Below the pieces are notes generated by a model. The model was not told where the DNA came from. It made no database searches and saw only the letters and a program-made list of their open reading frames with translations. A stretch of 40,653 bases of DNA from positions 1 through 40,653 of IMG/VR virus record IMGVR_UViG_3300044825_003312; one strand, 5' to 3'. This document shows positions 14,855 to 40,653 of the stretch, piece after piece. This DNA comes from a virus. A program made the translations under genes and the position numbers. Each line of letters opens with the position of its first letter. The stretch's first letter is position 1.

Positions 14855-16561
14855 ATGGAAAATAGACAACCTTTTGACTGGATTAATGATGAGTCAATTA
14901 CATTTCTCCGCAGAGGATATTTGAGTGAGGGTGAAGAACCTTTGGACAGAATTAAAACAATTGCAGAACACGCAGAGAAACTTCTTGGAATGGAAGGATT
15001 TGCAGAAAAGTTCTACGAATATATGGGTAAGGGGTGGTACTCACTTTCTTCTCCTGTATGGGCAAACTTCGGAAAGAAAAGAGGTTTACCTGTAAGTTGT
15101 TTTGGTTCCAACGTAGGTGACAATATTGAGTCAATCCTTTACACTCAGGCTGAAGTAGGTGAAATGAGTAAGATGGGTGGAGGAACTTCCGGTTATTTCG
15201 GAAATATCCGTGGTCGTGGTGCGGAAATCACTGACAATGGACACGCACCCGGTTCGGTTCACTTTATGAACTTGTTCCAAAGTGTGGTGGACAACATCTC
15301 TCAGGGTTCAACCCGTAGAGGACGATTCTCTCCTTACCTTCCTGTAGAACACCCTGACATCATGGAGTTCTTGGAAATTGGAACCGAAGGATTCCCTATT
15401 CAAGATTTGACTCACGCGGTTACTGTAACCGACCAGTTCATGGAAGAAATGATTGATGGTGACAAAGAGAAACGTGCAATTTGGGCTAAAGTAATTCAAA
15501 GACGAGGTGAGATTGGTTATCCATACATTATGTTCACCGATACGATGAATAACAAGGCACCTGAGGTGTACAAGGATAAGGACATGAAAATCTATAACTC
15601 AAATCTTTGTTCCGAGATTGCACTTCACAACTCTGAAGAAGAATCGTTTGTTTGTGTTTTGTCCTCTATGAATCTTCTTCACTATGATGAGTGGAAAGAC
15701 ACCGATGCTGTTGAAATGATGATTTACTTCCTCGATGCGGTTGTGTCGGAGTTTTTGACAAAGATTGAAAATATCAGAGACAACGGAACCTTGGAAGGTA
15801 AAAGAGCGTTTTTCTACCTTGAAAAGGCGTACAACTTCGCTAAAAGACAAAGAGCTCTCGGTCTTGGTGTTTTGGGTTGGCACTCACTTCTTCAATCTAA
15901 AAACCTCCCATTCGACAGTCGTGAAACGGCAAGATTGAATGTTGAAGTTTTCAAATTGATTAAAGAAAAGTCCTACAAGGCTTCAGGAGAGTTGGCTAAA
16001 ATCTTTGGTGAACCCGAAACCTTGGTAGGATATGGAAGAAGAAATGTTACCCTAAATGCGATTGCACCAACTACTTCCTCGGCATTTATCTTGGGTCAGG
16101 TATCACAATCAATTGAACCAATTTGGTCAAATTGTTATGTGAAAGACGTGGCAAAACTCAAGGTTACTATCAAGAACCCGGTGTTGAAAAAACTTTTGGG
16201 TGAACTTGGTAAAGATAACAAAACAACTTGGGAGAGTATTAAAAAACACGATGGTTCGGTTCAACATTTGGACTTCTTAACAGAAGAACAAAAAGATGTT
16301 TTCAGAACTTTCGCTGAAATCAACCAGTCATCGATTATCAACCAAGCGGCGGTAAGACAAGATTACATTGACCAAGCACAGTCACTCAACCTTATGATTT
16401 CACCTGACATGCCAACCAAGGATGTCAATAAATTGTTGGTTGACGCTTGGCAACTTGGAGTCAAGACACTCTACTATCAACACTCAATGAACTCGGCTCA
16501 AGCTTTTGCAAGAAAGAAACTCAATGTTAATGACTTACATTGTGTGGCTTGTGAGGCTTAA
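14855..16561 (+). CDS. nrdA: Class I ribonucleotide reductase catalytic subunit, short form without ATP-cone
   Basis: Reduces ribonucleoside diphosphates to deoxyribonucleotides using the radical supplied by NrdB. The redox Cys pair is C82 (PVSCFGSN) and C267 (FVCVLSSMN). The active site is N250-L-C252-S-E254. The GTSGYFGNIRGRG segment (about 110-122) is the glycine-rich loop near the substrate site, and PTTSSAFILGQ is the phosphate-binding turn. The radical-transfer Tyr pair is Y540-Y541, and the C-terminal tail carries the shuttle Cys pair C563 and C566. At 568 residues it is far shorter than E. coli NrdA (761) and has no N-terminal ATP-cone, consistent with the cone being on the partner NrdB. 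It is complete and all catalytic residues are present. A terminator follows 28 bp after the stop. Confidence 0.96.
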   Translation: MENRQPFDWINDESITFLRRGYLSEGEEPLDRIKTIAEHAEKLLGMEGFAEKFYEYMGKGWYSLSSPVWANFGKKRGLPVSCFGSNVGDNIESILYTQAEVGEMSKMGGGTSGYFGNIRGRGAEITDNGHAPGSVHFMNLFQSVVDNISQGSTRRGRFSPYLPVEHPDIMEFLEIGTEGFPIQDLTHAVTVTDQFMEEMIDGDKEKRAIWAKVIQRRGEIGYPYIMFTDTMNNKAPEVYKDKDMKIYNSNLCSEIALHNSEEESFVCVLSSMNLLHYDEWKDTDAVEMMIYFLDAVVSEFLTKIENIRDNGTLEGKRAFFYLEKAYNFAKRQRALGLGVLGWHSLLQSKNLPFDSRETARLNVEVFKLIKEKSYKASGELAKIFGEPETLVGYGRRNVTLNAIAPTTSSAFILGQVSQSIEPIWSNCYVKDVAKLKVTIKNPVLKKLLGELGKDNKTTWESIKKHDGSVQHLDFLTEEQKDVFRTFAEINQSSIINQAAVRQDYIDQAQSLNLMISPDMPTKDVNKLLVDAWQLGVKTLYYQHSMNSAQAFARKKLNVNDLHCVACEA

Positions 16562-16588: not shown

Positions 16589-16616
16589 ACCCGACACATA
16601 TGTGTTGGGTTTTTTG
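16589..16616 (+). terminator. Rho-independent terminator after nrdA
   Basis: A 10-bp stem (AACCCGACAC / GTGTTGGGTT, one G-T pair) with an ATAT loop, followed by T-rich sequence. It closes the replication and nucleotide operon before the gp25 gene. Confidence 0.9.
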
Positions 16617-16641
16617 TTTTATTATAAAAAGTTTCAGGGTA

Positions 16642-16648
16642 TATTTAT
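16642..16648 (+). promoter_or_regulatory. TATTTAT box before gp25, candidate late signal
   Basis: TATTTAT lies between the nrdA terminator and the gp25 ATG, ending 5 bp before it. Because the terminator should stop readthrough, a promoter for the baseplate operon is needed here. The short spacing would give an almost leaderless transcript, so either the true promoter is slightly upstream or the box acts in translation. Confidence 0.3.
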
Positions 16649-16653
16649 CTGAT

Positions 16654-17124
16654 ATGGCAGATGGAATTACATATGGTTTAGCATTTCCCTTCCAAGATTC
16701 AACTCAAGGGGATTTCTTACTTTTGACTGAAACACAATATGCACAAATCAAAAGTGATTTGATTCATTTGTTGTTAACAAGAAAAGGTTCAAGATATTTT
16801 CTCCCTGATTTTGGAACTCGGATATATGAATTTTTATTTGAACCTTATGATGGACTCACCTTCAATGCAATTGAAGCGGATATTCGAGATTCGGTATCTA
16901 AGTATATTCCCAATTTGTTGATTAATAACATAACCATCGAGCCAGCAGACCCTTCTGTGGAGGTAGAAAATGCTCAAGGGAGAGCACAACTCGCTCAAGA
17001 TGCAAATACTCCGTATAGGGTACCTGGTAAAGGAACATCTGAATATACCGCTAAAGTAAGAATAGATTTTTCAGTTGACAACTTGGCTTTTGCTCAGAGT
17101 GATTTTGTCATCCTCAATATTTAA
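16654..17124 (+). CDS. Baseplate wedge protein gp25
   Basis: Core component of contractile-tail baseplates: gp25 joins the wedge to the inner ring and primes sheath assembly. The family signature is clear across residues about 20-75: a helix with IKSDLIHLLLT, then RKGSRYFLPDFGTRIYEFLF and DIRDSVSKYIP. The ATG at 16654 was chosen because the longer in-frame start at 16600 lies inside the terminator hairpin and would add an unrelated hydrophobic leader. Length is 156 residues against 132 in T4; the extra sequence is a loop around residues 90-130 (EVENAQGRAQLAQDAN). It is the first gene of the baseplate block and is followed 5 bp later by the gp6-like gene, the same order as in P2 (W then J) and related tails. 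Confidence 0.88.
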   Translation: MADGITYGLAFPFQDSTQGDFLLLTETQYAQIKSDLIHLLLTRKGSRYFLPDFGTRIYEFLFEPYDGLTFNAIEADIRDSVSKYIPNLLINNITIEPADPSVEVENAQGRAQLAQDANTPYRVPGKGTSEYTAKVRIDFSVDNLAFAQSDFVILNI

Positions 17125-17129
17125 CATAT

Positions 17130-18968
17130 ATGGCAAACAACAAAATATCCTATACAGTACGAGATTACGAAAGTATTAGGATTGAACTCCAAAACTACGT
17201 AAGAACATATTATCCTGAATTGATTCAGGATTTCAATGATGCTTCGGTATTCTCAGTATTTTTGGATTTGAACGCCGCTGTCGCCGACAACCTTCACTAC
17301 CATATTGATAGAAGTATCCAAGAAACGGTTCTTCAATATGCACAACAAAGGTCGTCAATCTATAATATAGCAAGAACTTATGGATTAAAGATACCAGGTC
17401 AAAGACCTTCAGTATCTTTGGTAGACTTCTCAATTACTGTTCCTGCATTTGGAGACAAGGAGGACGAAAGATATTTGGGAACATTAACAAGAGGGTCTCA
17501 AGTCTTTGGTGCGGGTATTGTGTTTGAAACTCAATATGATGTGGATTTTGCATCACCGTATAATTCACAAGGTTTTCCCAATAGATTAAAGATTCCAAAC
17601 TTTGATGGAAATGGAAACCTTGTTAACTATACCATCACTAAAAGAGAACAAGTTGTTAATGGTCTAACAAAAGTTTTCAAAAGAGTAATCAATGCCAGTG
17701 ACGTAAAACCATTCTTTGAACTTTTCTTACCTGATAAGAATGTTCTTGGTGTTACGAGTGTTCTTCTTAAGAACGGAACTAACTATACCAACGTACCAAC
17801 TGCTGCAGAATTCTTGGGTGTTGAGAATAGATGGTATGAAGTTGATGCGTTAGCCGAAGATAGGATATTCATAGAAGACCCAACAAAAGTTTCAGACCAA
17901 CCAGGTGTAAAGGTTGGAAGATACATTCAAACGAACAACAGATTCATTACAGAGTTTACCCCCGAAGGTTTCATGAAAATGACATTCGGAGGTGGTTCAA
18001 CATCTGCTCAAGACCAATTGAATGCCTTTACCACTTTGGGATTACCTGTGACATTACAGACCATCCAAAACAATTTTTCTTTAGGTTCAACTCTTATTCC
18101 AAACACTACTTTGTTTGTTCAATATAGAGTTGGTGGTGGATTGGCAACAAACTTAGGAACAAATGTTATCAACCAAGTTGGTACCGTGACTTTCTTTGTT
18201 AATGGACCATCTCAGAATATTAACAATAGTGTTATTCAATCTTTGAGGTGTAATAACGTTACTGCGGCTATTGGAGGTGCAAATCCACCATCAGTTGAGG
18301 AAGTTAGAAATTATGTAACGTTTAACTTTGCAGCTCAAAAAAGAGCGGTAACAGTTAATGATTATGACTCTTTATTGAGAACAATGCCAGCACAATTTGG
18401 TGCACCTGCCAAGGTGGCTATAACCGAAAATAATAACAAGATTGTTATCAGTTTATTGTCATACGATACCTCAGGAAAATTAACACCAATTGTTTCGAAT
18501 ACATTGAGACAAAATGTTGCAAATTATTTGTCCAACTATAGAATGATGAATGACTATATTCAGGTTACATCTGCTGAAGTTCTTGATTTAGGAATCGAAA
18601 TTTCTGTGGTGTTAGATGCAACACAAAATTCAGGTCAAATTATTTCGGAGATTGTTAATAGAATCTCAGCTTACATGGACCCTCAGTTTAGACAACTTGG
18701 ACAAAATGTTTATTTATCAGAACTTAGAACAATTGTTCAACAACAAACAGGTGTAATTACCGTTGCGGATTTAGTAATCGAAAATAAAGTTGGGGGACAA
18801 TATTCTTCAGCTCAAACTTCGATGAGTTATTCTGACCCGGAACTAAGAATTATTCAACCTGTAGATGATACTTTATTTGCACAACCAAACCAAGCATATC
18901 AAGTAAGATTTCCTCAAAAGGACATCAAGGTTAAGGTCAAGAACTTCCAAAATGTTTCTTTTTCTTAA
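17130..18968 (+). CDS. Baseplate wedge protein gp6 (baseplate J family)
   Basis: Structural wedge protein that forms the inner baseplate ring and transmits the conformational change that fires the sheath. The N-terminus has the typical start of the family: a YTVRDYESIRIELQNYV helix followed by DFNDASVFSVFLDLNAAVADNL and a HIDRSIQETVL helix. The C-terminal half carries the J-like domain, with KRAVTVNDYDSLLRTMP and a ferredoxin-like strand set ending in VYLSELRTIVQQQTGV. Length 612 is close to T4 gp6 (660). No Cys-rich or repeat insert is present. The gene directly follows gp25, the conserved order of contractile tails. Confidence 0.8.
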   Translation: MANNKISYTVRDYESIRIELQNYVRTYYPELIQDFNDASVFSVFLDLNAAVADNLHYHIDRSIQETVLQYAQQRSSIYNIARTYGLKIPGQRPSVSLVDFSITVPAFGDKEDERYLGTLTRGSQVFGAGIVFETQYDVDFASPYNSQGFPNRLKIPNFDGNGNLVNYTITKREQVVNGLTKVFKRVINASDVKPFFELFLPDKNVLGVTSVLLKNGTNYTNVPTAAEFLGVENRWYEVDALAEDRIFIEDPTKVSDQPGVKVGRYIQTNNRFITEFTPEGFMKMTFGGGSTSAQDQLNAFTTLGLPVTLQTIQNNFSLGSTLIPNTTLFVQYRVGGGLATNLGTNVINQVGTVTFFVNGPSQNINNSVIQSLRCNNVTAAIGGANPPSVEEVRNYVTFNFAAQKRAVTVNDYDSLLRTMPAQFGAPAKVAITENNNKIVISLLSYDTSGKLTPIVSNTLRQNVANYLSNYRMMNDYIQVTSAEVLDLGIEISVVLDATQNSGQIISEIVNRISAYMDPQFRQLGQNVYLSELRTIVQQQTGVITVADLVIENKVGGQYSSAQTSMSYSDPELRIIQPVDDTLFAQPNQAYQVRFPQKDIKVKVKNFQNVSFS

Positions 18969-28477: not shown

Positions 28478-31452
28478 TGGCGGTTAATACGACAAAGTTT
28501 TTCTACCCACCTGCACCTGGCACGGGTATCGGTACCTTTGACAACATTGTAGGTTTACAACTTGTCGAGGGTGGTGGACTAACTACGTCTGTGTTTGATT
28601 TTACAAGTAGTGTCACTGAAAAAGTTAATAGAACCTTTTCCATAGGCACCTTTTCAAATCCGATATCTTTGGAGGATTTGGATTTACAATCTTTAGAGGA
28701 AAGTAGAAGAATTCAACAAACACAATTTAGGGTTTATCCAAACTATGATGTTTCACAAGTACTTAACTTTTCCCTATACGGTTCTTTGAATAAAAGGTTA
28801 AGTGTCTCGGTAAATAAGATTATCAATTTTTTCCCAGCGGCTTTAGATGTTAGATACGTAATGCCCGACTTTACAACAGGACAAACGGCAACCAACATTT
28901 CATTTAATCCTGTAGACAACGAAACAACTTTTAGAATTCCTGCCAGTAACATATTCAATCCATTTATGATTGAATATTCTGTTAGTGCCACAACCAATAT
29001 GATGGTTCGTGAAATTGTCACTTCAGAATATAGAGATTTTACAAAGACATATCTCAGTTACGTTTTAGATTACCAAGGAGTGTTGTACCCTGTGGTTGGG
29101 TTCACTCCGTCAGTTAGTTTGACAACCGGATACATTGAGTTGGTTGTGGAAGGTGAACCATTCAATGGAATAACAACAACACAAGACAATTACCTTGTTC
29201 GTCCCAATAACCTTACGGTTGATAAGGTTTTTTCTGAAGACTTTGACGAGGTAGAGAAATTTTTGATGAACAGGTTGATTCAACCTGAATACACCGCCAG
29301 TTTCCAAGTACCACTTCAGAACGAAGCCGGACAATTCTACACGGGTTATGTTCAAGTTACATTCCCAAAAGATGGAACATGGAACTTAGATATTCGTTCA
29401 ACGAAGTTTGATGATTACTTGGCTCAGTTGGCTGATTTAGCAACGAATTTGGATTCGTTCAAAACCAACTTAGTTTCAAGATTTTTGGTTACAGATTCAA
29501 TCAAAGAGTTTGATACATTGGGACACAAAGTTGAAAAAGTTCTACAAATTTATGGAAGAAGTTTTGACCAAATCAAACAATTCATCGATGCCTTGGCATA
29601 CATGAATAATGTAAATTACTTCCCACAGAACGACATTCCATCACAATTATTATTTAATTTGTCTCAAACTTTGGGTTGGGAAAATAATTTCTCACCAATT
29701 ACCAATGAAAACTTCTTAGATAGTGTTTTTGGAACCACACCATCTTTGGAATTTCCAGGTTACGCCCGTTCACAAACTCCAACAGAACTTAACTATCAAT
29801 TCTATAGAAATCTTATTCTTAACTCGGCATATCTTTTCAAGTCAAAAGGTACAAGACGTTCAATCGAATTTTTGTTGAGATTAATTGGAGCACCTGACGC
29901 ACTTATTGATTACAACGAATACATCTACTTAGCGGACCAAAAAATTGATATGGCTAAGTTTGATTTACAATACGCTTCCTTATCGGGGGGAACTTATATC
30001 AACGAGGTTCCCGCACTTCAACCAGGTGATACATTTAAAATCAAAGGTCAAACATTCACGGCATTTACAACAAACACCACATTCACTGATGTAAACGTTC
30101 AAAGAGCCGACTACCCTGTTGACGCAGAGGGTTTCCCACAAGCACCGACACCACTTGGTGACAACGGAGTATTCTTCCAAGAAGGTGCGGGTTGGTACGA
30201 ACAAACGCCACAACACAGAAGTCCTGACCAAGTTACTGTTACAGGTGATGTCTTTACTGGACAAAACTTTGATGTTCAGACGTCACTTCAACCTTTTACC
30301 TATGGTGGAATTTATTTGAACAGATACGAACAATTCCCATATATGATTGATGGGTTCAAATTACAGAGAGTGCCTGACAATAAGAAATCTTGGTTAGACA
30401 CCGATGACAAATTAAGAATTGACACCCAAGCGGGATACGAAGCCTACTACTATACTCAAACCGAAAAGTTGGTTCTCAACGTAAAGAATGTTGATATACA
30501 CCTAAACGTCGGACAAGGATTTACTTATGACGTTTGGGACATGTCAAGACAATATAACTACCCAATTCCTGAGTCAGGTTTTACGGCTAACTACCCGTCA
30601 CCCGGTGGTATTGATGATACGTTCATCGACCCTGAGCCACAGAAGAAAACATTCTTTGAATTCAGTCAAACTTTTTGGCAGAACATGATTAACACTCGTA
30701 ACCGTCTATACATCACAGATGGTAAGACGGGTGGATATCCAACACTACAATCTATTTTTTGGAAATACTTGGAATCTGAACAGACCGTAGGTATTCCAAC
30801 AAACAAATACACATACCAAAAGTTGATTGAGTACGTTGATGCCTTAGGTCCTTATTGGACAAGACTTATCGAACAGATGATTCCTGCAACAACTCTTTGG
30901 ATGGGGGGAATAAAGTTAGAAAACTCTATCTTCCACAAACAAAAATTTGTTTACAGAAGACAACGTGGTTGTCAGATTGTACCAGTACCGGCACAACCTT
31001 GTTTCATTATTTCCAATATATTTGACTACGATTGTAATACCCAATATGCAACCTTCTTTATTTATCCGTGGTTGAATGGTGATGAAACCGTGTCGGATTT
31101 TGCATCGATTCTCAATAATAGGGTTAATAACTTTTTGACGACAAATAACCTGACTTATACTGAATGTGTGCAGGATACGATAAGTTCAGAGTGGTACATG
31201 ACTTTGACAGTTGGTTCTCAGACAATATTTAGTGTTATGTTCTACACAGGTTATGGAATTGCCGATGCTCCAACAACTGCACTTTGGAGGCAAACTTTAA
31301 TTGATAATCTTTATCTACTTTACCAATACGGCTACACTTATACCTTGAATGGTAATAACTTGACAGTAACGAATTTAAAGACTGTGAGTAATAACACCGT
31401 AGAATCTGTAACCCTTAGTGTCGGGATAAACTTAAGTATTAATTGTGACTGA
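28477..31452 (+). CDS. Large baseplate protein with tail-protein-I/gp7-like segment, 991 aa
   Basis: Residues about 325-475 resemble the tail protein I (P2 gpI / T4 gp7 wedge) arrangement: a long helix with EFDTLGHKVEKVLQIYG, a conserved Leu-Gly-Trp-Glu turn, and YLFKSKGTRRSIEFLLRLIG (about 453-472). In simple contractile tails this protein completes the wedge with gp25 and gp6, both encoded upstream. Flanking regions are beta-rich. The C-terminal 60 residues form a small module ending in a Cys, whose pattern recurs in the next gene. T4 gp7 is 1,032 residues, close to this length. The stop overlaps the next start (TGATG). The identification is by motif shape and context, not by alignment. Confidence 0.5.
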   Translation: MAVNTTKFFYPPAPGTGIGTFDNIVGLQLVEGGGLTTSVFDFTSSVTEKVNRTFSIGTFSNPISLEDLDLQSLEESRRIQQTQFRVYPNYDVSQVLNFSLYGSLNKRLSVSVNKIINFFPAALDVRYVMPDFTTGQTATNISFNPVDNETTFRIPASNIFNPFMIEYSVSATTNMMVREIVTSEYRDFTKTYLSYVLDYQGVLYPVVGFTPSVSLTTGYIELVVEGEPFNGITTTQDNYLVRPNNLTVDKVFSEDFDEVEKFLMNRLIQPEYTASFQVPLQNEAGQFYTGYVQVTFPKDGTWNLDIRSTKFDDYLAQLADLATNLDSFKTNLVSRFLVTDSIKEFDTLGHKVEKVLQIYGRSFDQIKQFIDALAYMNNVNYFPQNDIPSQLLFNLSQTLGWENNFSPITNENFLDSVFGTTPSLEFPGYARSQTPTELNYQFYRNLILNSAYLFKSKGTRRSIEFLLRLIGAPDALIDYNEYIYLADQKIDMAKFDLQYASLSGGTYINEVPALQPGDTFKIKGQTFTAFTTNTTFTDVNVQRADYPVDAEGFPQAPTPLGDNGVFFQEGAGWYEQTPQHRSPDQVTVTGDVFTGQNFDVQTSLQPFTYGGIYLNRYEQFPYMIDGFKLQRVPDNKKSWLDTDDKLRIDTQAGYEAYYYTQTEKLVLNVKNVDIHLNVGQGFTYDVWDMSRQYNYPIPESGFTANYPSPGGIDDTFIDPEPQKKTFFEFSQTFWQNMINTRNRLYITDGKTGGYPTLQSIFWKYLESEQTVGIPTNKYTYQKLIEYVDALGPYWTRLIEQMIPATTLWMGGIKLENSIFHKQKFVYRRQRGCQIVPVPAQPCFIISNIFDYDCNTQYATFFIYPWLNGDETVSDFASILNNRVNNFLTTNNLTYTECVQDTISSEWYMTLTVGSQTIFSVMFYTGYGIADAPTTALWRQTLIDNLYLLYQYGYTYTLNGNNLTVTNLKTVSNNTVESVTLSVGINLSINCD

Positions 31453-34400
31453 TGCCTTGTAGTAATAATAAGTACTTAGTTTGTTGTAGTGAAACTCCAC
31501 CAACAAAGTCGTTTTCGGTATGTAACCCAACCATAGACGGAGTTCCTAATTCTAATTTTGCGGTTGGTCCAACCTATGTTTCGCTTGACCCTGTAAATGG
31601 AAACGTTTGTTTTTCTGCGGTCACATCACCTGTGGGGACTGTATACAATTATGCCATCACTAATTTTCAAACAATAACAAATGGTACTGCTGATTGCGTT
31701 CAATGTACCTTGGATTATGGGGGTAGTTGCCCAATTGTATCTAGTTTTGCAAACGCAATTTTAGTTAATTGCTGTGATGGTACAGATACCCTTCAAGCCA
31801 GTGTCCCAAGTACGTACACACCAGGTACAGTTTCTTTCAGATACAATGATAAATGTTGGACTCTTCAGTCTTACGGAGGTTCTGGGGGTGTAAACTTAAT
31901 TGCTGGTTATGATGGATGTGGAGGTTGTACAGCGGCATTCCCTTGTACGGAACCTTCACCATCACCAACACCCACACCCACGGTGACACCTGGATATGTT
32001 TATTACTTTAGTGGTTGTTGTACACCAGCAATTCAATACGAAGTTATATCAGGAATTGACTTGTTTGTCGGTCCTGGTAATTTCTATTTTTTAGAAATTC
32101 CGAGCCTTAATTTTACGGGATGTACTGAAGCGGTGGCGTCTTTACCAGGTCCTTATTCATCGTATGTATGGAACTCTGGAACTGATACAATTAATGGTAC
32201 TTATTTTGATTGTGGAGATTGTTTAGCGTTCAATCCGACTGCGGTTTGTCCTTCACCGACTCCTACAAAGACTCCTACTCCAACTCCTACACCGTCAACA
32301 AGTTTAACACCAACACCAACTCTCACAAAAACTCCAACTCCAACACCTGGAGGTTCTCCCAGTAGTACACCAACACCAACATTAACACCATCGTCATCTT
32401 CTTTTGGTAATGGAAATGTTTTTGATTACACGTTAGAAATAACGGGAGCGTGTGAAACAGGATTTGGTACGGTTGAAATTGTCGCTAGTGGAGGTGTTCC
32501 ACCTTATACGTTTGATTGGTACAGTCCTAATTTAGGTTTAGGTAACTACAAAACAAACTTACTTCCAGGAACTTATCTTGTTAGAGCCAATGACTCTGCA
32601 GTGCCAACCAACAGTCAGTTTTTTATAAACGTAACTGTTGGAAGTTGTATTTGTGTTTCAATTGTTAATGTAGACCCAACAACTTGTGGTTTGGACAACG
32701 GAGCTGTTACTGCAACAACAACTTCAACAACATCCTACGTTACTTATGACCTTTACGACTCAACGGACACGTTAGTTAGTACAGTCACATCACTTCAACC
32801 TTACGGTATCTTCTCAAATTTAAGTGCGGGAGTCTACTATATTATTGCCACTGATACAAGTGGGGGTCAAGGTACAAGTTCAACCTTTATTATCCAAGAT
32901 TCAAATCCATTAGATTTTGGTTTGTATGTTGTACCAAATTCTGCATGTAATGGAAATAATGATATTGGTAAAATATATGTTACAGGTTTAACTGGAAATG
33001 CCCCATATACTTATCTGTGGAGTAATGGTAAAACCACGAGTTCTATTACAGGACTCACCGCAGGGGTTTACTCTGTTCAAGTAACGGATTCGGGTGGATG
33101 TTCAACAACAAAACAAGGAAGTGTTGTAGATATTGAACCTTTGGCTTTTGGTTCATTCACAGCCGTTAATCCTACATGTTACGATGCGAATGGTTCTCTC
33201 ACATTGAATATTGTTGATGGAACGGCACCTTATTATTATTCGGCTTCGACAGGTGAAGTTTTAATCACTTACGCCACTTCGTTTACAATTAATAACTTAT
33301 CAAACGGAACCTATAACTTTGTTGTTACCGACGCAGGACTTTGTCAAATCTATGTTGGTACTACACTTCAAAGCGCGGGTGGAGTTTCCTCTGTTTTGGT
33401 TTCAACACAGAATTCAACTTGTAATTCAAATGACGGACAAATAACTGTGTCTTTGGTGGGAGGAGTTTCTCCTTACATCATAACTTTAGTAAATCCCGAC
33501 GGAGATTCTACGGCAATTACAACAAATCAAACGGTAGAGGTATTTTCAAACCTTGGACCTGGAACTTACTCGGTGTTTGTTCAAGATTCCACAGGATGTG
33601 TCTACACTCAAGAAGTTACTTTAGTTTCAGAAGATAAGTTTGCGGTCACTTATTCTATTATCCCCTCGACTTGTGGATTGTCGAATGGAACTATTGAGAT
33701 TACCGTATCAGGTGGTTACGAATTACCATTGACATATAGTATTGATGGTGTTCAAACAATTATCAATTCGAGCCTTACGGTTGTAAGTTACAACAACGTT
33801 TCAAATGGACAACATTTAATTGGTGTTACAGACAACACAGGGTGTACCATTGAAGTTCCGTTCACAATGTTCGGAAGTAACCCTGTTCAGTTCTCATTAT
33901 ATTCTACTTCTTGTGGAACAGGAAATCAGGGTAGTATTACTGCATTGATTTCTCAAGGAACTCCGCCATTTACGTTTAATTGGTCACCAAATATCCCATC
34001 TAATCCGCAACAAATAACGGTGAATAATTTAACAGGGGGAACCTACAGTTTAGTTATTCAAGATGCTAATAATTGTTCATTTGGTGCACTGACAACTATT
34101 GAATGTACACAAACATATGTTTCTTTCCAGACTTACACAATGGGTAGTGATGAGTTTGTAATTGTTTCACCAACAAAATGTGGAATTATTCAAATTCTAA
34201 ACGACGGGTTTGCGGATTTGACTTCAGGATTTACAGGTTGTGTTCTTTTGAATGCTGAATACATCGCTAAAGTACAGGTTCAACCACAAGGTACAGTGTT
34301 AACAAACTCATTCTACAATGGAACAAGTTTGATTGATGTACCAAGTGACAACCTTTGGTACACCACAATCGAAAATATGTTGGAAAGTATTGTTGGTATT

Positions 34401-35057
34401 GTAGATGTGGTTATTGACCCATTGAATAATCAGATTACAATCAAAGCCGACCCAAGCAGTTCAATTATTGACCAACAAATTATTGTTGAATTGGTAATTG
34501 TTTATGACATTGAATGTGAATCTACGGTTCCACCAACTCCAAGCCCAACTGCAACACCAACTATTACCCCAAGTATAACTCCAAGTGTTTCTTTGACCCC
34601 AAGTGTTACGCCAACAAAATCAGTTACACCATCAGTTACACCTTCGACCTCAGTCACTCCCACAGTAACTCCCACCAAAACCTTGACACCAACACCTAGT
34701 ATGACACCTGGATTAAATTTGTCTACCTCCTTTATTTATCAAGTGTCCTACGACCTCTTACCAACAATAACAACCAACAGTATAGCAAACGCCGCGGCGG
34801 CTAAGACTTTGATATGTGATTGGTGGAATGGTTCAGACCAAACAAGCACAGCGTACGGAAGTAATTTTGCGAATCCTCTGAATGTTGGAACCTATGTAGG
34901 TTTTTCGAACACTCCTGGTAATGGACCGATGTTTGCGGGTAATTACATCGTGGGAGATTTCACGACAGTTACAGGACCAAGTAGTGTAAACTATTGGGTG
35001 GTAATTGACGGTTCAGGATTTGTAACAGAATATACCCTAATCGACCCTAATTGTTGA
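31452..35057 (+). CDS. Cys-rich, SprB-repeat adhesin-like virion protein, 1,201 aa
   Basis: Probable surface-exposed tail protein for host contact. Domains in order: (1) residues about 1-260, three Cys-rich modules, each with a CC pair and a later CxxC (C11-C12/C82-C85, C107-C108/C156-C159, C189-C190/C254-C257); (2) Thr/Pro linkers before and after the third module; (3) residues about 321-893, seven Ig-like units of 70-90 residues with the SprB-repeat pattern (Cys, Asn-Gly, Gly-x-x-Pro-Tyr-x-Tyr, Leu-x-x-Gly-x-Tyr, Val-x-Asp-x-x-Gly-Cys); (4) a small module (about 968-1023) like the end of the previous protein; (5) a 60-residue Thr/Pro/Ser linker; (6) a C-terminal globular domain. There is no signal peptide. 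SprB is a gliding-motility adhesin of flavobacteria. The virion role is inferred from its place among tail genes. Confidence 0.7.
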   Translation: MPCSNNKYLVCCSETPPTKSFSVCNPTIDGVPNSNFAVGPTYVSLDPVNGNVCFSAVTSPVGTVYNYAITNFQTITNGTADCVQCTLDYGGSCPIVSSFANAILVNCCDGTDTLQASVPSTYTPGTVSFRYNDKCWTLQSYGGSGGVNLIAGYDGCGGCTAAFPCTEPSPSPTPTPTVTPGYVYYFSGCCTPAIQYEVISGIDLFVGPGNFYFLEIPSLNFTGCTEAVASLPGPYSSYVWNSGTDTINGTYFDCGDCLAFNPTAVCPSPTPTKTPTPTPTPSTSLTPTPTLTKTPTPTPGGSPSSTPTPTLTPSSSSFGNGNVFDYTLEITGACETGFGTVEIVASGGVPPYTFDWYSPNLGLGNYKTNLLPGTYLVRANDSAVPTNSQFFINVTVGSCICVSIVNVDPTTCGLDNGAVTATTTSTTSYVTYDLYDSTDTLVSTVTSLQPYGIFSNLSAGVYYIIATDTSGGQGTSSTFIIQDSNPLDFGLYVVPNSACNGNNDIGKIYVTGLTGNAPYTYLWSNGKTTSSITGLTAGVYSVQVTDSGGCSTTKQGSVVDIEPLAFGSFTAVNPTCYDANGSLTLNIVDGTAPYYYSASTGEVLITYATSFTINNLSNGTYNFVVTDAGLCQIYVGTTLQSAGGVSSVLVSTQNSTCNSNDGQITVSLVGGVSPYIITLVNPDGDSTAITTNQTVEVFSNLGPGTYSVFVQDSTGCVYTQEVTLVSEDKFAVTYSIIPSTCGLSNGTIEITVSGGYELPLTYSIDGVQTIINSSLTVVSYNNVSNGQHLIGVTDNTGCTIEVPFTMFGSNPVQFSLYSTSCGTGNQGSITALISQGTPPFTFNWSPNIPSNPQQITVNNLTGGTYSLVIQDANNCSFGALTTIECTQTYVSFQTYTMGSDEFVIVSPTKCGIIQILNDGFADLTSGFTGCVLLNAEYIAKVQVQPQGTVLTNSFYNGTSLIDVPSDNLWYTTIENMLESIVGIVDVVIDPLNNQITIKADPSSSIIDQQIIVELVIVYDIECESTVPPTPSPTATPTITPSITPSVSLTPSVTPTKSVTPSVTPSTSVTPTVTPTKTLTPTPSMTPGLNLSTSFIYQVSYDLLPTITTNSIANAAAAKTLICDWWNGSDQTSTAYGSNFANPLNVGTYVGFSNTPGNGPMFAGNYIVGDFTTVTGPSSVNYWVVIDGSGFVTEYTLIDPNC
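31948..31993 (+). repeat. Thr/Pro linker after Cys-module 2
   Basis: Encodes a short EPSPSPTPTPTVTPG run joining the second and third Cys-rich modules of the SprB-repeat protein. It is probably extended and flexible. Confidence 0.75.
32251..32400 (+). repeat. Thr/Pro linker between Cys modules and SprB-like repeats
   Basis: About 50 residues made almost wholly of Thr-Pro units with Ser, Lys and Leu, including TPTPTPTPS. It separates the N-terminal Cys-rich part from the Ig-like repeats and probably acts as a stalk. Confidence 0.8.
32413..34132 (+). repeat. Seven SprB-like Ig repeats
   Basis: Tandem protein repeats of 70-90 residues. The clearest copy (near 32930-33130) has Ala-Cys-Asn-Gly, APYTYLWSNG, LTAGVYSVQVTDSGGC. 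Most copies keep the entry Cys, the Gly-Thr/Val-x-Pro-Tyr turn, the Leu-x-x-Gly-x-Tyr strand and the Asp-x-x-Gly-Cys end; copies differ widely in sequence, so they are old rather than freshly duplicated. The pattern is that of the SprB repeat family known from Bacteroidota cell-surface proteins. Confidence 0.75.
34529..34713 (+). repeat. Thr/Pro/Ser linker after SprB-like repeats
   Basis: About 60 residues built on a Thr-Pro-Ser-Val/Ile-Thr-Pro theme (ITPSITPSVSLTPSVTP and similar). Codons for the repeated residues vary, so the DNA is not a perfect repeat. Confidence 0.8.
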
Positions 35058-35489: not shown

Positions 35490-36488
35490 ATGTCGTTAGA
35501 GTCAATTATTGTAGTTAATACAGCCACGGGATGTGATACTTCTGTCGAGCAACAGATAGAGGTTACGGGATATCAGTGTTTTATAGTCAGACTCCCTGCA
35601 GAATCGGACGCTATAGGTCCTTTTGACGTTTATACGGGTTCTACAGGGGAAACCGCAGTATACGTGGGGGTAACAAGAAATGAAATGATTGATGGGGTTA
35701 CCATTTGTTTTGGTGTTGCACCAAGTAATACACCTACACCAACTCCAACAGCAACACCTACACCAACACCATCAATAACACCTACAATAACACCGACTCC
35801 AGGAGTTTCTCCAAGTGTAACACCAACAGGAACTGTTACACCTACTCCAACACCTTCATCTTCACCAGGTCCTGTTTATTCGGCATACATTTTCCCTGAA
35901 CCTCAGGATGCAACATCTCAGGCTAACTTGGGTAACTACATGTTCACCAACGGTGCTGTCAACTATTACGGATATGCTAACTCAGGAAGTTATCCTGCGG
36001 GACCAAACTACGCTAGTGACCTTAACATTTACGTTCAGTATACTGATTGGGCTGGTGGTTCAGGAAACTTCATATCAGACGTTGGTACTCTCAAGGGTGG
36101 AATTCGTCAAGCTTCAGGTTCAGGAACCGATTCATTCGGATGTAACCAATCTCAATATACTTTTGGTACGGTAGAAATTACTACTTCATCCGTCAATCCT
36201 AATATACAATACGTTTACTCAGTTTGGTTACCACTTGCGGGTGTTGGTGGAACTCTTAATAATATGACTTTGGACGTGGGTACAGGTACTCCTTGTACTT
36301 CTGACATATCTAATGGTGGAATTCCTGATATTATTAACTCTTCGGTAAACGTAACAGTCCCATCGGGATGTGCAATTCCTACCGGAACCTATCGAGTTCT
36401 TTGGATGACAGAACTCGTTAATTTACCTGCAATTGCTAACCTTCCTTTGGGTGCATCAATATTTATCAAAGGTGAAAGCAAATCATAA
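35490..36488 (+). CDS. Tail protein with Thr/Pro stalk, 332 aa
   Basis: Two-domain protein. Residues 1-77 are a small beta domain with three Cys. Residues about 78-128 are a Thr/Pro-rich stalk, and residues about 129-332 are a beta-rich C-terminal domain with Tyr/Gly/Ser-rich strands and a few Cys ([29 protein letters not shown]). The linker is of the same kind as in the SprB-repeat and hub-like proteins. Its place between the SprB-repeat protein and the collagen-like fibre suggests a receptor-contact or fibre-linked role. No signal peptide and no recognised enzymatic motif. The fold of the C-terminal domain is unknown. Confidence 0.65.
35721..35872 (+). repeat. Thr/Pro linker in the 332-aa tail protein
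   Basis: About 50 residues of Thr-Pro units ([15 protein letters not shown], then [10 protein letters not shown] and similar) form the stalk between the two domains. Codons are mixed, so the DNA is not a simple repeat. Confidence 0.8.
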
Positions 36489-36517: not shown

Positions 36518-39500
36518 ATGTCTTCTCTCTATAAGAACCCTATAAGTTCATCACAGCAATCAGGTCCAGAATCGGTAGCTTCTACCTCAGTTTTTGGCAC
36601 TAATTTCTCTGTTTTACAAACGGGGGGTTATATGGAAGTTTACAACCTCTCAGATTTGGAGCTTGTATTAACAGCTGCGACTTATCCAACTTTGATTCAA
36701 AATTCGGGTAATACCATACCCATCGCTTTCACTAAAGGGACGGGTTCAGCGTTTTCTCCTGATATTATCCAACTTAATTCTGATAATATATCTTCAGGAC
36801 GTAGGAGACTTGGAATGCAGGTTTACGTTTATGAAACTGACCAAGTTTATCAATACCATATTGACAATTATAGTACTCTGTTTGGTAATGTAACAGGTTT
36901 AACCGGTGCTTCGGCAATTACCGTTACAGAGTACTCTACTGCCGTTAACAATCGTTCTGCTGCGGGACAAACTTTTATTAATGCTTGGACAGGTTCAACT
37001 ATTGAAGGTATAGCCGGTGCGACTGCAACAACTGCTCGTTGGAGAAAAGTTTATACCACTGACGTTCAAATCACAGGTGGAACATATTTTTCTGCGACAA
37101 CACCAAATGCCAACTATGTCGAATTAGAAAATAGTACAGGAGGTACTATAACAATCACAGGATTTACAGCACCAGTCACAGGTGGTACTTTCGATTCGGG
37201 TACAAAAATCTTAACGCTCAACAGTAGTGATGGTACATCCATTTCTATAGCTGGATTTAGTGGTGCGGACTTACAAGTAGGTGATGGAGTAACAACAGTT
37301 TCTGCGGTTACTGGAATGACTTTCGTAGGGGCTTCAGTAACAAACAATGGTAGTGGAAATATAACTGTAACAATTACAGGTACTGCAACAAGCTCAGGTA
37401 CTTCTGGAACCTCAGGTTCTTCAGGAATAAATGGTACATCAGGTTCAAGCGGGACTTCAGGAATAAGTGGTACAAGTGGAACTTCAGGTTCAAGTGGATT
37501 GAATGGAACTTCAGGAACAAGCGGACTTGATGGAACAAGTGGTACAAGTGGACTTGATGGGACCTCAGGCTCAAGTGGGACTAGCGGAATTGATGGTAGC
37601 TCAGGTACTTCAGGAATCAATGGTACTTCAGGTACATCAGGATTGGATGGTACTTCGGGAACAAGTGGTAGTTCAGGCATTTCGGGGACTAATGGTACTT
37701 CAGGTACTAGTGGAGTGGACGGAACATCGGGTACTAGCGGAATAGATGGAACATCAGGTACTTCAGGAATCGATGGTACTTCGGGTACATCAGGATTAGA
37801 TGGCACCTCAGGAACAAGTGGAATTGATGGTTCCTCGGGTACTAGTGGAGTAGATGGTACATCAGGAACAAGTGGTAGTTCAGGTGTTGATGGTACTTCC
37901 GGAATTGATGGTTCTTCAGGTACTAGTGGTTCATCAGGTACAACAGGTACCTCAGGGACAAGTGGTTCTTCAGGTTTAAGTGGAGTTGACGGAACTGCCG
38001 GTACATCTGGAACAAGCGGTACATCAGGAACGAGTGGTACTTCAGGTATCGATGGTACTTCAGGGACAAGTGGTAGTTCAGGTATCAATGGAACTTCAGG
38101 TACGAGTGGCACTTCAGGAATCAATGGAACTTCAGGAACAAGCGGTACAACAGGAACCTCGGGTACTTCAGGAACAAGTGGAACTAGTGGAATTGACGGA
38201 ACTTCAGGCACAAGTGGTTCATCAGGAGTCAACGGAACTTCAGGAACAAGCGGTACAACAGGAACTTCGGGTACTTCAGGAACAAGTGGTACTTCAGGTA
38301 CTACCGGAACTTCGGGTACATCTGGAACATCAGGATTGGATGGTACATCAGGAACAAGCGGAATTAGTGGAACATCAGGAACAAGTGGTACCTCGGGTAC
38401 TTCAGGAACTTCAGGTACTAGTGGTACTACGGGAACAAGCGGAACTTCAGGTACAAGTGGAACTTCAGGTACTACGGGAACAAGTGGTACTTCAGGTACT
38501 TCAGGAACAAGTGGGACTTCAGGTACAACAGGAACTTCAGGAACAAGCGGTGTTGATGGTACTTCAGGCACATCAGGTACAAGTGGCACGACAGGAACTA
38601 GTGGTACTTCAGGAACAAGTGGTGTAGACGGAACTTCAGGTACCTCAGGTACAACAGGAACAAGTGGAACTTCAGGAACGACAGGAACCTCAGGAACCTC
38701 AGGAACAAGCGGTACAACAGGAACCTCAGGAACGAGCGGTACAACAGGTACCTCAGGAACGAGTGGTGTTGATGGTACTTCAGGGACATCCGGTACAAGC
38801 GGAACAACAGGTACATCAGGAACAAGTGGTATTGATGGCACTTCAGGAACCTCAGGTACAAGTGGTACTTCAGGAACTAGTGGTACTTCGGGTACGAGTG
38901 GTATTGATGGTACTTCAGGAACAAGTGGAACATCAGGAACAACAGGTACTTCAGGAACATCAGGAACAACTGGAACTTCAGGTACTAGTGGGACATCAGG
39001 TACAACAGGAACAAGTGGAACATCCGGTACTTCAGGTACTACAGGAACTAGTGGAACAAGTGGTGTTGATGGAACATCGGGGACTTCGGGAACCTCAGGA
39101 ACCTCAGGAACTTCAGGAACAACTGGAACGAGTGGAACTTCGGGTACAACAGGAACAAGTGGAACATCAGGTACTTCGGGTACGACAGGAACATCAGGAA
39201 CAAGTGGAATTGACGGTACATCGGGAACTTCTGGTACGTCAGGTACATCCGGTACATCGGGAACTTCAGGTACTAGCGGAATTGATGGAACATCGGGAAC
39301 ATCAGGTACAAGTGGAAGTGCTGGCACTTCAGGATTAAGTGGTGTAAACGGAACATCAGGTACTTCAGGAAGTACAGGAACAAGTGGAACATCAGGGACA
39401 ACTGGTACGTCCGGTACAAGTGGGACATCAGGTACTACAGGAACTAGTGGTACATCGGGAACTTCAGGAACTAGTGGTACATCGGGCACTTCAGGAACTT

Positions 39501-40653
39501 CGGGCACAACAGGAACGAGTGGTACATCAGGTACAACCGGCACAAGTGGTACATCAGGTACTACAGGAACATCAGGTTCAAGTGGAACAACAGGAACAAG
39601 TGGAACTTCAGGTACGAGTGGAACCACCGGTACATCAGGTACTTCAGGAACTACAGGCACCTCAGGGACTAGTGGTACATCAGGTACTACAGGAACTAGT
39701 GGTACAAGTGGAGTTGATGGAACTTCCGGCACATCTGGAACAAGTGGCACAACAGGAACATCCGGTACGAGTGGAACTTCAGGAACAACAGGAACCTCAG
39801 GAACAAGTGGTACTTCGGGAACTACAGGTACCTCAGGAACTAGCGGTACATCAGGAACTACAGGTACATCAGGTACTTCGGGAACAACGGGCACTTCAGG
39901 TACTAGTGGAACTTCAGGTTCAAGCGGTACGAGTGGAATTGATGGGACTTCAGGTACAAGTGGTACATCTGGAACATCAGGAAGTAGTGGCACTTCAGGA
40001 ACATCAGGCACAACAGGAACGTCAGGAACGTCAGGAACAACAGGAACGAGTGGTACTTCAGGAACTTCGGGAACAACAGGAACCAGTGGTACTTCAGGTA
40101 CAACAGGTACTAGTGGAACTTCAGGTTCAAGTGGTACAAGTGGAATAGATGGTACATCAGGAACTAGTGGTACTTCAGGTACAACAGGAACTTCAGGAAC
40201 GAGTGGTACTAGTGGAACCTCGGGTTCAAGTGGTACTAGTGGAATAGATGGTACATCAGGAACTAGTGGTACTTCAGGTACAACAGGAACTTCAGGAACG
40301 AGTGGAACTTCAGGAACGACTGGTACTTCAGGAACTAGTGGGACTTCAGGAACTACGGGTACAAGTGGAACTTCAGGAACCTCAGGTACAACAGGAACAA
40401 GTGGAACTTCAGGAACGACTGGTACTAGCGGAACTTCAGGAACCTCAGGTACAAGCGGTACGACAGGAACTAGTGGAACTTCGGGTACAAGTGGAATTGA
40501 TGGTACTTCAGGAACTTCAGGTACTTCAGGTACGACAGGAACGAGTGGAACTTCTGGCACGAGTGGAATCGATGGTACTTCAGGAACATCAGGTACTTCA
40601 GGAACGTCAGGTACGACAGGAACAAGTGGAACTTCAGGAACGACTGGTACTAG
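36518..40653 (+). CDS. Collagen-like Gly-Thr-Ser tail fibre (3' partial)
   Basis: Very long fibre protein, still open at the right edge; 1,378 codons are visible. Residues 1-293 are a globular N-terminal region with beta-strand modules (GTITITGFTAPVTGGTFDSG and KILTLNSSDGTSISIAGF) like those of phage fibre heads that attach to the baseplate. From residue 294 (37397) every third residue is Gly: (G-T-S) units dominate, broken by G-S-S, G-T-T, and G-hydrophobic-Asp/Asn units such as GID, GLD, GVD and GIN. Gly-X-Y repeats in phage form trimeric collagen-like rods. The first part is richer in GID/GLD/GIN units, the later part in GTT. The last bases (TAG) are not an in-frame stop. Start: the ATG after an A-rich leader; 29 bp separate it from the previous gene. 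The C-terminal tip, likely receptor binding, is outside the window. Confidence 0.85.
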   Translation, partial: MSSLYKNPISSSQQSGPESVASTSVFGTNFSVLQTGGYMEVYNLSDLELVLTAATYPTLIQNSGNTIPIAFTKGTGSAFSPDIIQLNSDNISSGRRRLGMQVYVYETDQVYQYHIDNYSTLFGNVTGLTGASAITVTEYSTAVNNRSAAGQTFINAWTGSTIEGIAGATATTARWRKVYTTDVQITGGTYFSATTPNANYVELENSTGGTITITGFTAPVTGGTFDSGTKILTLNSSDGTSISIAGFSGADLQVGDGVTTVSAVTGMTFVGASVTNNGSGNITVTITGTATSSGTSGTSGSSGINGTSGSSGTSGISGTSGTSGSSGLNGTSGTSGLDGTSGTSGLDGTSGSSGTSGIDGSSGTSGINGTSGTSGLDGTSGTSGSSGISGTNGTSGTSGVDGTSGTSGIDGTSGTSGIDGTSGTSGLDGTSGTSGIDGSSGTSGVDGTSGTSGSSGVDGTSGIDGSSGTSGSSGTTGTSGTSGSSGLSGVDGTAGTSGTSGTSGTSGTSGIDGTSGTSGSSGINGTSGTSGTSGINGTSGTSGTTGTSGTSGTSGTSGIDGTSGTSGSSGVNGTSGTSGTTGTSGTSGTSGTSGTTGTSGTSGTSGLDGTSGTSGISGTSGTSGTSGTSGTSGTSGTTGTSGTSGTSGTSGTTGTSGTSGTSGTSGTSGTTGTSGTSGVDGTSGTSGTSGTTGTSGTSGTSGVDGTSGTSGTTGTSGTSGTTGTSGTSGTSGTTGTSGTSGTTGTSGTSGVDGTSGTSGTSGTTGTSGTSGIDGTSGTSGTSGTSGTSGTSGTSGIDGTSGTSGTSGTTGTSGTSGTTGTSGTSGTSGTTGTSGTSGTSGTTGTSGTSGVDGTSGTSGTSGTSGTSGTTGTSGTSGTTGTSGTSGTSGTTGTSGTSGIDGTSGTSGTSGTSGTSGTSGTSGIDGTSGTSGTSGSAGTSGLSGVNGTSGTSGSTGTSGTSGTTGTSGTSGTSGTTGTSGTSGTSGTSGTSGTSGTSGTTGTSGTSGTTGTSGTSGTTGTSGSSGTTGTSGTSGTSGTTGTSGTSGTTGTSGTSGTSGTTGTSGTSGVDGTSGTSGTSGTTGTSGTSGTSGTTGTSGTSGTSGTTGTSGTSGTSGTTGTSGTSGTTGTSGTSGTSGSSGTSGIDGTSGTSGTSGTSGSSGTSGTSGTTGTSGTSGTTGTSGTSGTSGTTGTSGTSGTTGTSGTSGSSGTSGIDGTSGTSGTSGTTGTSGTSGTSGTSGSSGTSGIDGTSGTSGTSGTTGTSGTSGTSGTTGTSGTSGTSGTTGTSGTSGTSGTTGTSGTSGTTGTSGTSGTSGTSGTTGTSGTSGTSGIDGTSGTSGTSGTTGTSGTSGTSGIDGTSGTSGTSGTSGTTGTSGTSGTTGT
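37397..40653 (+). repeat. (Gly-X-Y)n coding repeat, mainly Gly-Thr-Ser
   Basis: More than 3.2 kb (about 361 triplets) of collagen-like repeat. At protein level most units are identical; at DNA level the codons for Gly, Thr and Ser vary freely, including both the TCN and AGY families for Ser. It continues past the window edge. Confidence 0.95.
40139..40305 (+). repeat. 99-bp period duplication inside the fibre repeat
   Basis: The 68-bp block at 40139-40206 recurs without change at 40238-40305, an offset of 99 bp (33 codons, 11 Gly-X-Y triplets). The flanking sequence is similar but has synonymous changes. This is a recent in-frame expansion, unlike the scrambled sequence of most of the repeat. 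Confidence 0.85.

Follow-up and report, generated by a model that had tools for sequence, protein, structure and literature searches.

A fixed seven-unit array of SprB-type repeats in the tail operon of large freshwater phages, proposed as a structural rod at the baseplate edge

We analysed a 40.6-kb virus fragment (the whole stretch of DNA, called the window here) in which a protein of 1201 residues with SprB-type repeats is encoded among tail genes (Table 1). Homologues of two baseplate wedge proteins lie upstream on the same strand, and a close relative with 75% identity in the array gene (G002) has a tail sheath (E=2.3e-54) and a tail tube (E=5.7e-24) further upstream. Judged from these genes, gp25 and gp6 in the window and sheath and tube in the relative, the tail is contractile (T4-type), and the array gene sits in a baseplate/tail operon as the first-pass annotation had proposed. 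The gene directly upstream of the array gene matched a large baseplate-region protein of Microcystis phage Mel-JY01 over about 180 residues (hhalign probability 89%) and matched the large baseplate-region protein of Flavobacterium phage immuto weakly (hhalign probability 37%). We tried to place the array gene itself by homology to T4 gp7-gp12 or to the fibre genes of immuto and obtained no match. Since no T4 baseplate or fibre protein matches the array protein in sequence, the baseplate position of the latter is not fixed by homology.

Downstream of the array gene, the counterparts of the 35490-36488 gene in relatives (loci L038-L116) had a conserved N-terminus, and C-terminal domains that seemed to be of two or more classes by sequence. 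From their sequences, these classes seem to resemble exchanged receptor-binding tips. The collagen-like fibre was at least 2,897 aa long in a near-identical contig (G001; L019, reverse strand), where it contained an internal globular domain. An antisense ORF of 1179 aa (37114-40653) probably arises artefactually from the fibre repeats. The NrdA encoded at 14855-16561 was 63.7% identical to NrdA of Staphylococcus and Mammaliicoccus phages, and was far nearer to cultured phages than any structural gene tested.

Table 1. Features of the array gene and its neighbours in the window.
Feature	Position	Strand	Remarks and evidence
Baseplate wedge gp25 homologue	16600..17124	+	
Baseplate wedge gp6 / Baseplate_J homologue	17130..18968	+	
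Gene directly upstream of array gene, 991 aa	28477..31452	+	
Array gene, 1201 aa	31452..35057	+	SprB-type array flanked by additional modules at both termini; ORF, Pfam, alignment
N-terminal extension	31452..32420	+	Two Cys-rich modules, Pro/Thr-rich linkers between and after; in ~10% of unique homologues
Unit 1	32421..32651	+	SprB-type beta-sandwich; Pfam, alignment, predicted structure
Unit 2	32652..32909	+	Second Cys of pair lost (Gly472); alignment, predicted strands; no Pfam match
Unit 3	32910..33140	+	Above Pfam SprB cut-off; nearest to most cellular units; Pfam, alignment
Unit 4	33141..33383	+	Above Pfam SprB cut-off; Pfam, alignment
Unit 5	33384..33635	+	Above Pfam SprB cut-off; Pfam, alignment
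Unit 6	33636..33884	+	SprB, alone under cut-off; Pfam, alignment
Unit 7	33885..34115	+	SprB, alone under cut-off; Pfam, alignment
Conserved C-terminal alpha/beta domain	34116..34529	+	About 137-138 aa; no significant PDB fold match
Linker to C-terminal tip	34530..34712	+	Pro/Thr-rich
C-terminal tip module	34713..35054	+	Missing from most homologues
Small conserved gene, 122 aa	35064..35432	+	Next after array gene in most relatives
Fibre-like protein	35490..36488	+	Pro/Thr-linked; homologues 332 to 855 aa
Collagen-like tail fibre protein (start)	36518..40653	+	GTS-rich; PF01391 E=9.3e-150

The Pfam SprB family (PF13573) matched the 1201-aa protein at E=1.4e-23 and 82.6 bits (cut-off 28) over six stretches. 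In the single-stretch search, units 1, 3, 4, 5, 6 and 7 were matched, with units 3, 4 and 5 passing the cut-off alone, and unit 2 showed no PF13573 match. Unit borders were set by alignment of 45 unique homologues. The alignment placed seven units at 32421-34115, which upheld the count and the SprB-type assignment given in the first-pass annotation for 32413-34132, with 6/7 units detected by Pfam. The copies were also divergent as claimed there, with a pairwise identity of 22-39% among the units of the window protein. From unit 1 to the C-terminal domain, 16 Cys positions were invariant in 45/45 unique sequences. Units 3-7 have two conserved Cys each, 51-59 residues apart, and unit 7 has one extra. 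Disulfides among these Cys are conceivable, though the protein is assembled in the cytoplasm. The array units of LR756502.1, a 642-kb phage, showed a like Cys pairing by eye.

A PF13573 search of 14 well-known control genomes gave zero matches, and SprB was matched in 27/27 members of a diverse homologue alignment (best E 2e-30). An AlphaFold2 prediction on this 27-member alignment returned a run of beta-sandwich units, an all-beta array of the expected length, and after it a C-terminal domain of alpha/beta type (mean pLDDT 79.6). With a pTM of 0.30, the model does not fix how the domains are arranged along the rod. The top PDB fold matches were GhpA fragments (E down to 3.7e-19); GhpA is a grappling-hook protein from Aureispira, a genus of Bacteroidota. 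The matches of the array were chains of tandem Ig domains, as for a tandem Ig-like beta-sandwich protein. The C-terminal sorting domains of the type 9 secretion system (T9SS; CHU_C and Por_Secre_tail) were absent from the window protein at Pfam E<=1, and Por_Secre_tail was touched by 5/27 aligned members (best 4.8e-4). By eye, the window protein and the short homologues showed no hydrophobic segment of an N-terminal signal peptide. As neither a signal peptide nor a T9SS sorting domain turned up, the array protein is not an SprB adhesin; it has the repeat family and the fold in common with the SprB adhesin, and not its identity.

The C-terminal domain gave a fair model of its own (pLDDT 82.6, pTM 0.75). 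We could not name it by fold, the best match being not significant (E 7.5e-3, TM 0.36), or by PHROG, where matches were marginal. Terminal add-ons occurred in about 6-14% of sequences, and the window protein was among the most decorated. The C-terminal tip after the linker differed, by eye, between the window phage and its nearest relative G002, with the rest of the protein ~76% identical, and in sequence this is the pattern of exchanged tip modules. Small Cys-rich modules joined by Pro/Thr linkers (CC...C...CxxC, by eye) were seen at window 31452-32250, in the tip of the G002 protein and in L207, from another relative (described below). Such modules recur within and between the tail proteins of the clade and are possibly exchangeable binding modules.

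A search of IMG/VR with the upstream gene gave 216 relatives, 80 of which were kept. With the two nearest contigs set aside, 73 of 78 had SprB matches, and the other five are contigs that stop ahead of or just within the array gene, so the repeats were present in 73/73 relatives whose contig reaches the gene. The family search gave zero SprB matches in immuto, Mel-JY01 and LR756508.1, which have the gp6 baseplate gene in common with the window. A search with the C-terminal domain gave 312 IMG/VR relatives. Seven position-specific unit models matched in order in all 80 homologues kept from this search (80/80), which were picked via the C-terminal domain and not via the array, and some of which are repeat samplings of the same populations (in the first set, 45 of 64 full-length sequences were unique). 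The span from unit 1 to the C-terminal domain was 563-585 aa in those 80.

Across the 45 unique sequences, the length of units 2-7 varied by 0 to 2 residues. In 16 phage proteins, the best match of each unit was the unit at the same position in every other protein (1680/1680 comparisons). Mean identity to the window protein, calculated in 25-residue bins over the units and the C-terminal domain, was 24-71% with all sequences present. Among the clade homologues compared, units showed no trace of having been gained, lost or homogenised later. Because the seven units are in order everywhere and the position-wise orthology is complete, we place the array before the diversification of the clade. 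From this conservation, it looks like an old, fixed part of a large phage clade and not like a recently captured host gene.

Similar arrays were found at six cellular loci, titled as Bacteroidales, Bacteroides, Saprospiraceae, Flavobacteriales or Bacteroidetes MAGs; one of the six has a Ruminococcus title and is probably a mislabelled bin. The longer cellular matches were 25-28% identical to the phage protein, and the cellular units were not collinear with phage units 1-7, many of them being closest to unit 3, the unit of most canonical type. We rejected a recent host-to-phage capture on this identity and lack of collinearity, and among the cellular arrays found there is no nameable donor by sequence. 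The first-pass annotation had suggested that the phage captured, or mimics, a host adhesin module. The repeat type is indeed that of Bacteroidota surface adhesins, in a tail operon of a phage with a likely Bacteroidota host, but no capture event is visible: the seven units are fixed clade-wide, and even the closest cellular arrays found have just ~27% identity and lack collinearity. We also considered that host arrays are homogenised and phage arrays are not; this was discarded, as the cellular arrays found also average ~30% between units, and only the array of LR756502.1 was more uniform (0.50).

SprB-type units were seen in other settings in phages. LR756502.1 encodes a protein of 1670 aa (L017:9970-14982) with a signal-like start, fourteen SprB-type units, PKD and CHU_C (E=5.1e-14), and no tail genes were recognised by eye around it. 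The signal-like start, SprB repeats, PKD and CHU_C T9SS domain make this a host-type secreted protein. Another huge phage, LR745206.1, encodes a host-type secreted protein with one SprB unit (L018:11020-13218), the C-terminus of which is like that of the LR756502.1 protein by eye. In a 317-kb relative of the window phage (G075), a Pro/Thr-linked protein of 984 aa (L207:5510-8464, minus strand) has two SprB-like units and lies distant from the tail operon; Pfam SprB gave nothing at E<=0.001 on the whole protein. With this second protein, the SprB-like module seems to be reused within the G075 genome.

A Shine-Dalgarno-like motif was found at 0/19 gene starts checked in the window, and a missing Shine-Dalgarno motif is expected for Bacteroidota. 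Ribosomal protein bS21 (PF01165) was encoded in 8/15 relatives, these being all eight records of at least 128 kb. In G075, the major capsid, portal and large terminase genes belong to a block that also holds the bS21 gene, which is read from the opposite strand. In freshwater Bacteroidetes myoviruses of 293-331 kb, bS21 is likewise on the reverse strand within the terL/portal/protease/MCP block (PMC9723584). The likeness concerns the relatives of the window phage, beyond the 40.6-kb window itself, and SprB, in contrast, is nowhere mentioned in that paper. Because of the bS21 arrangement of the relatives and the lack of Shine-Dalgarno-like motifs in the window, the host is likely to belong to the Bacteroidota.

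We propose, at a probability of roughly 0.62, that the array protein is a structural rod of the virion, with seven SprB-type Ig-like domains and a C-terminal docking domain, at the baseplate edge of a contractile-tail freshwater Bacteroidota phage. Gene order suggests that the protein sits in the virus particle. The conserved C-terminal domain, or unit 1, would dock the rod onto the baseplate, although the fold of the C-terminal domain did not significantly match that of any docking domain. With an estimated 4 nm or so for each of the seven domains, the rod would hold the reach constant at very roughly 25-30 nm, and it would carry or flank variable tips that touch the host, namely the Pro/Thr-linked add-ons, the product of the 35490 gene and the collagen-like fibre. 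Contact of the units themselves with host-surface sugars is possible and would be secondary here. We favour a structural rod because a structural part has to be of constant length, and all 80 homologues have seven units. Fixed unit number, core-wide conservation, universal presence and operon position make a rod at the baseplate edge a better fit than a tip adhesin, and a tip role is available elsewhere, because changing modules are found at the ends of the array protein and in the next genes.

As the main alternative, the SprB-type units may themselves attach to the gliding machinery or to polysaccharide on the host surface, so that the first reversible contact is made through the host's own adhesin fold. 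Bacteroidota surface adhesins have this repeat family and this fold, and the closest solved structures are those of GhpA. For F. columnare, as for F. johnsoniae, phage receptors have been proposed to belong to the gliding apparatus (PMC7345892), and Bacteroidota gut phages have Ig-like adhesins such as BACON and PKD (PMC13370021). However, tip domains are usually swapped, whereas these units are conserved and fixed in number, and it is the add-ons and the next gene that clearly vary. We therefore consider direct host binding by the units conceivable and on balance unlikely.

It is improbable in our assessment that the array serves to keep virions on mucus, extracellular polysaccharide or particles, as proposed for T4 Hoc and Flavobacterium phage Ig-like domains. 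Freshwater Bacteroidota are often particle-associated, which would suit such a role, and Hoc-type decoration is dispensable and head-borne, which counts against it. Ig-like domains of phage structural proteins have been tied to mucin binding, including those of F. columnare phage FCL-2 (PMC6867891). The array gene, however, was in every relative checked and lies inside the baseplate operon. A rod built from the gliding-adhesin fold of the host might engage the moving surface adhesins or their tracks, homotypically or through a polysaccharide bound by both, and the virion would be carried along the cell before irreversible binding; we attach very little credence to this idea. An accessory-gene adhesin that is secreted and displayed on the infected cell, a case that seems real in LR756502.1 with its SprB repeats, PKD and CHU_C T9SS domain, is barely credible here, where the window protein has no T9SS domain, neither it nor its homologues have a signal peptide visible by eye, and the array gene is locked in the tail operon.

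The proposed structural rod can be set beside several known systems. With the SprB-repeat adhesins (SprB of F. johnsoniae and GhpA) the window protein shares the PF13573 family and the beta-sandwich fold; in contrast to them, it is free of a T9SS domain or visible signal peptide, is encoded in a phage tail operon and has its units fixed at seven. SprB itself is far larger. A protein of 714 aa from an uncultured Caudovirales phage (UniProt A0A6J5LD72, 'SprB repeat') matched almost the whole core by fold (E=4.2e-59) but is more distant in sequence (32% identity). It very probably belongs to the same family, and the family is therefore already in the databases under an automatic name. The literature searched, open-access papers as opposed to subscription ones, held no account of SprB repeats in phage tails or of A0A6J5LD72.

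T4 Hoc and the Hoc-like decoration proteins of T5 type carry Ig-like domains on the phage particle, as the array protein probably does, and a T5-type decoration protein showed a weak match to the SprB units of LR756502.1 (E=7e-4). Those proteins are head-borne, whereas the window gene lies in a baseplate operon. The nearest published kind is the BACON/PKD adhesins of gut Bacteroidota phages (crAss-like and Flandersviridae-like), which have Ig-like domains near structural genes (PMC13370021). The domains described there are BACON, PKD, Big-2 and unspecified Ig-like, with SprB absent from the text, and their arrays are mixed and modular, in contrast to the fixed array of the window clade.

That phage particles bear Ig-like domains is well established; here, a repeat of Bacteroidota surface and gliding adhesins forms an invariant seven-unit part of the tail region in a widespread group of large freshwater phages. 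SprB-type repeats are thus not restricted to secreted host proteins, and a gene named only 'SprB repeat' by automatic pipelines is given a reading. The array protein offers a concrete protein for asking how phages first touch gliding Bacteroidota, the receptors of which are mostly unknown.
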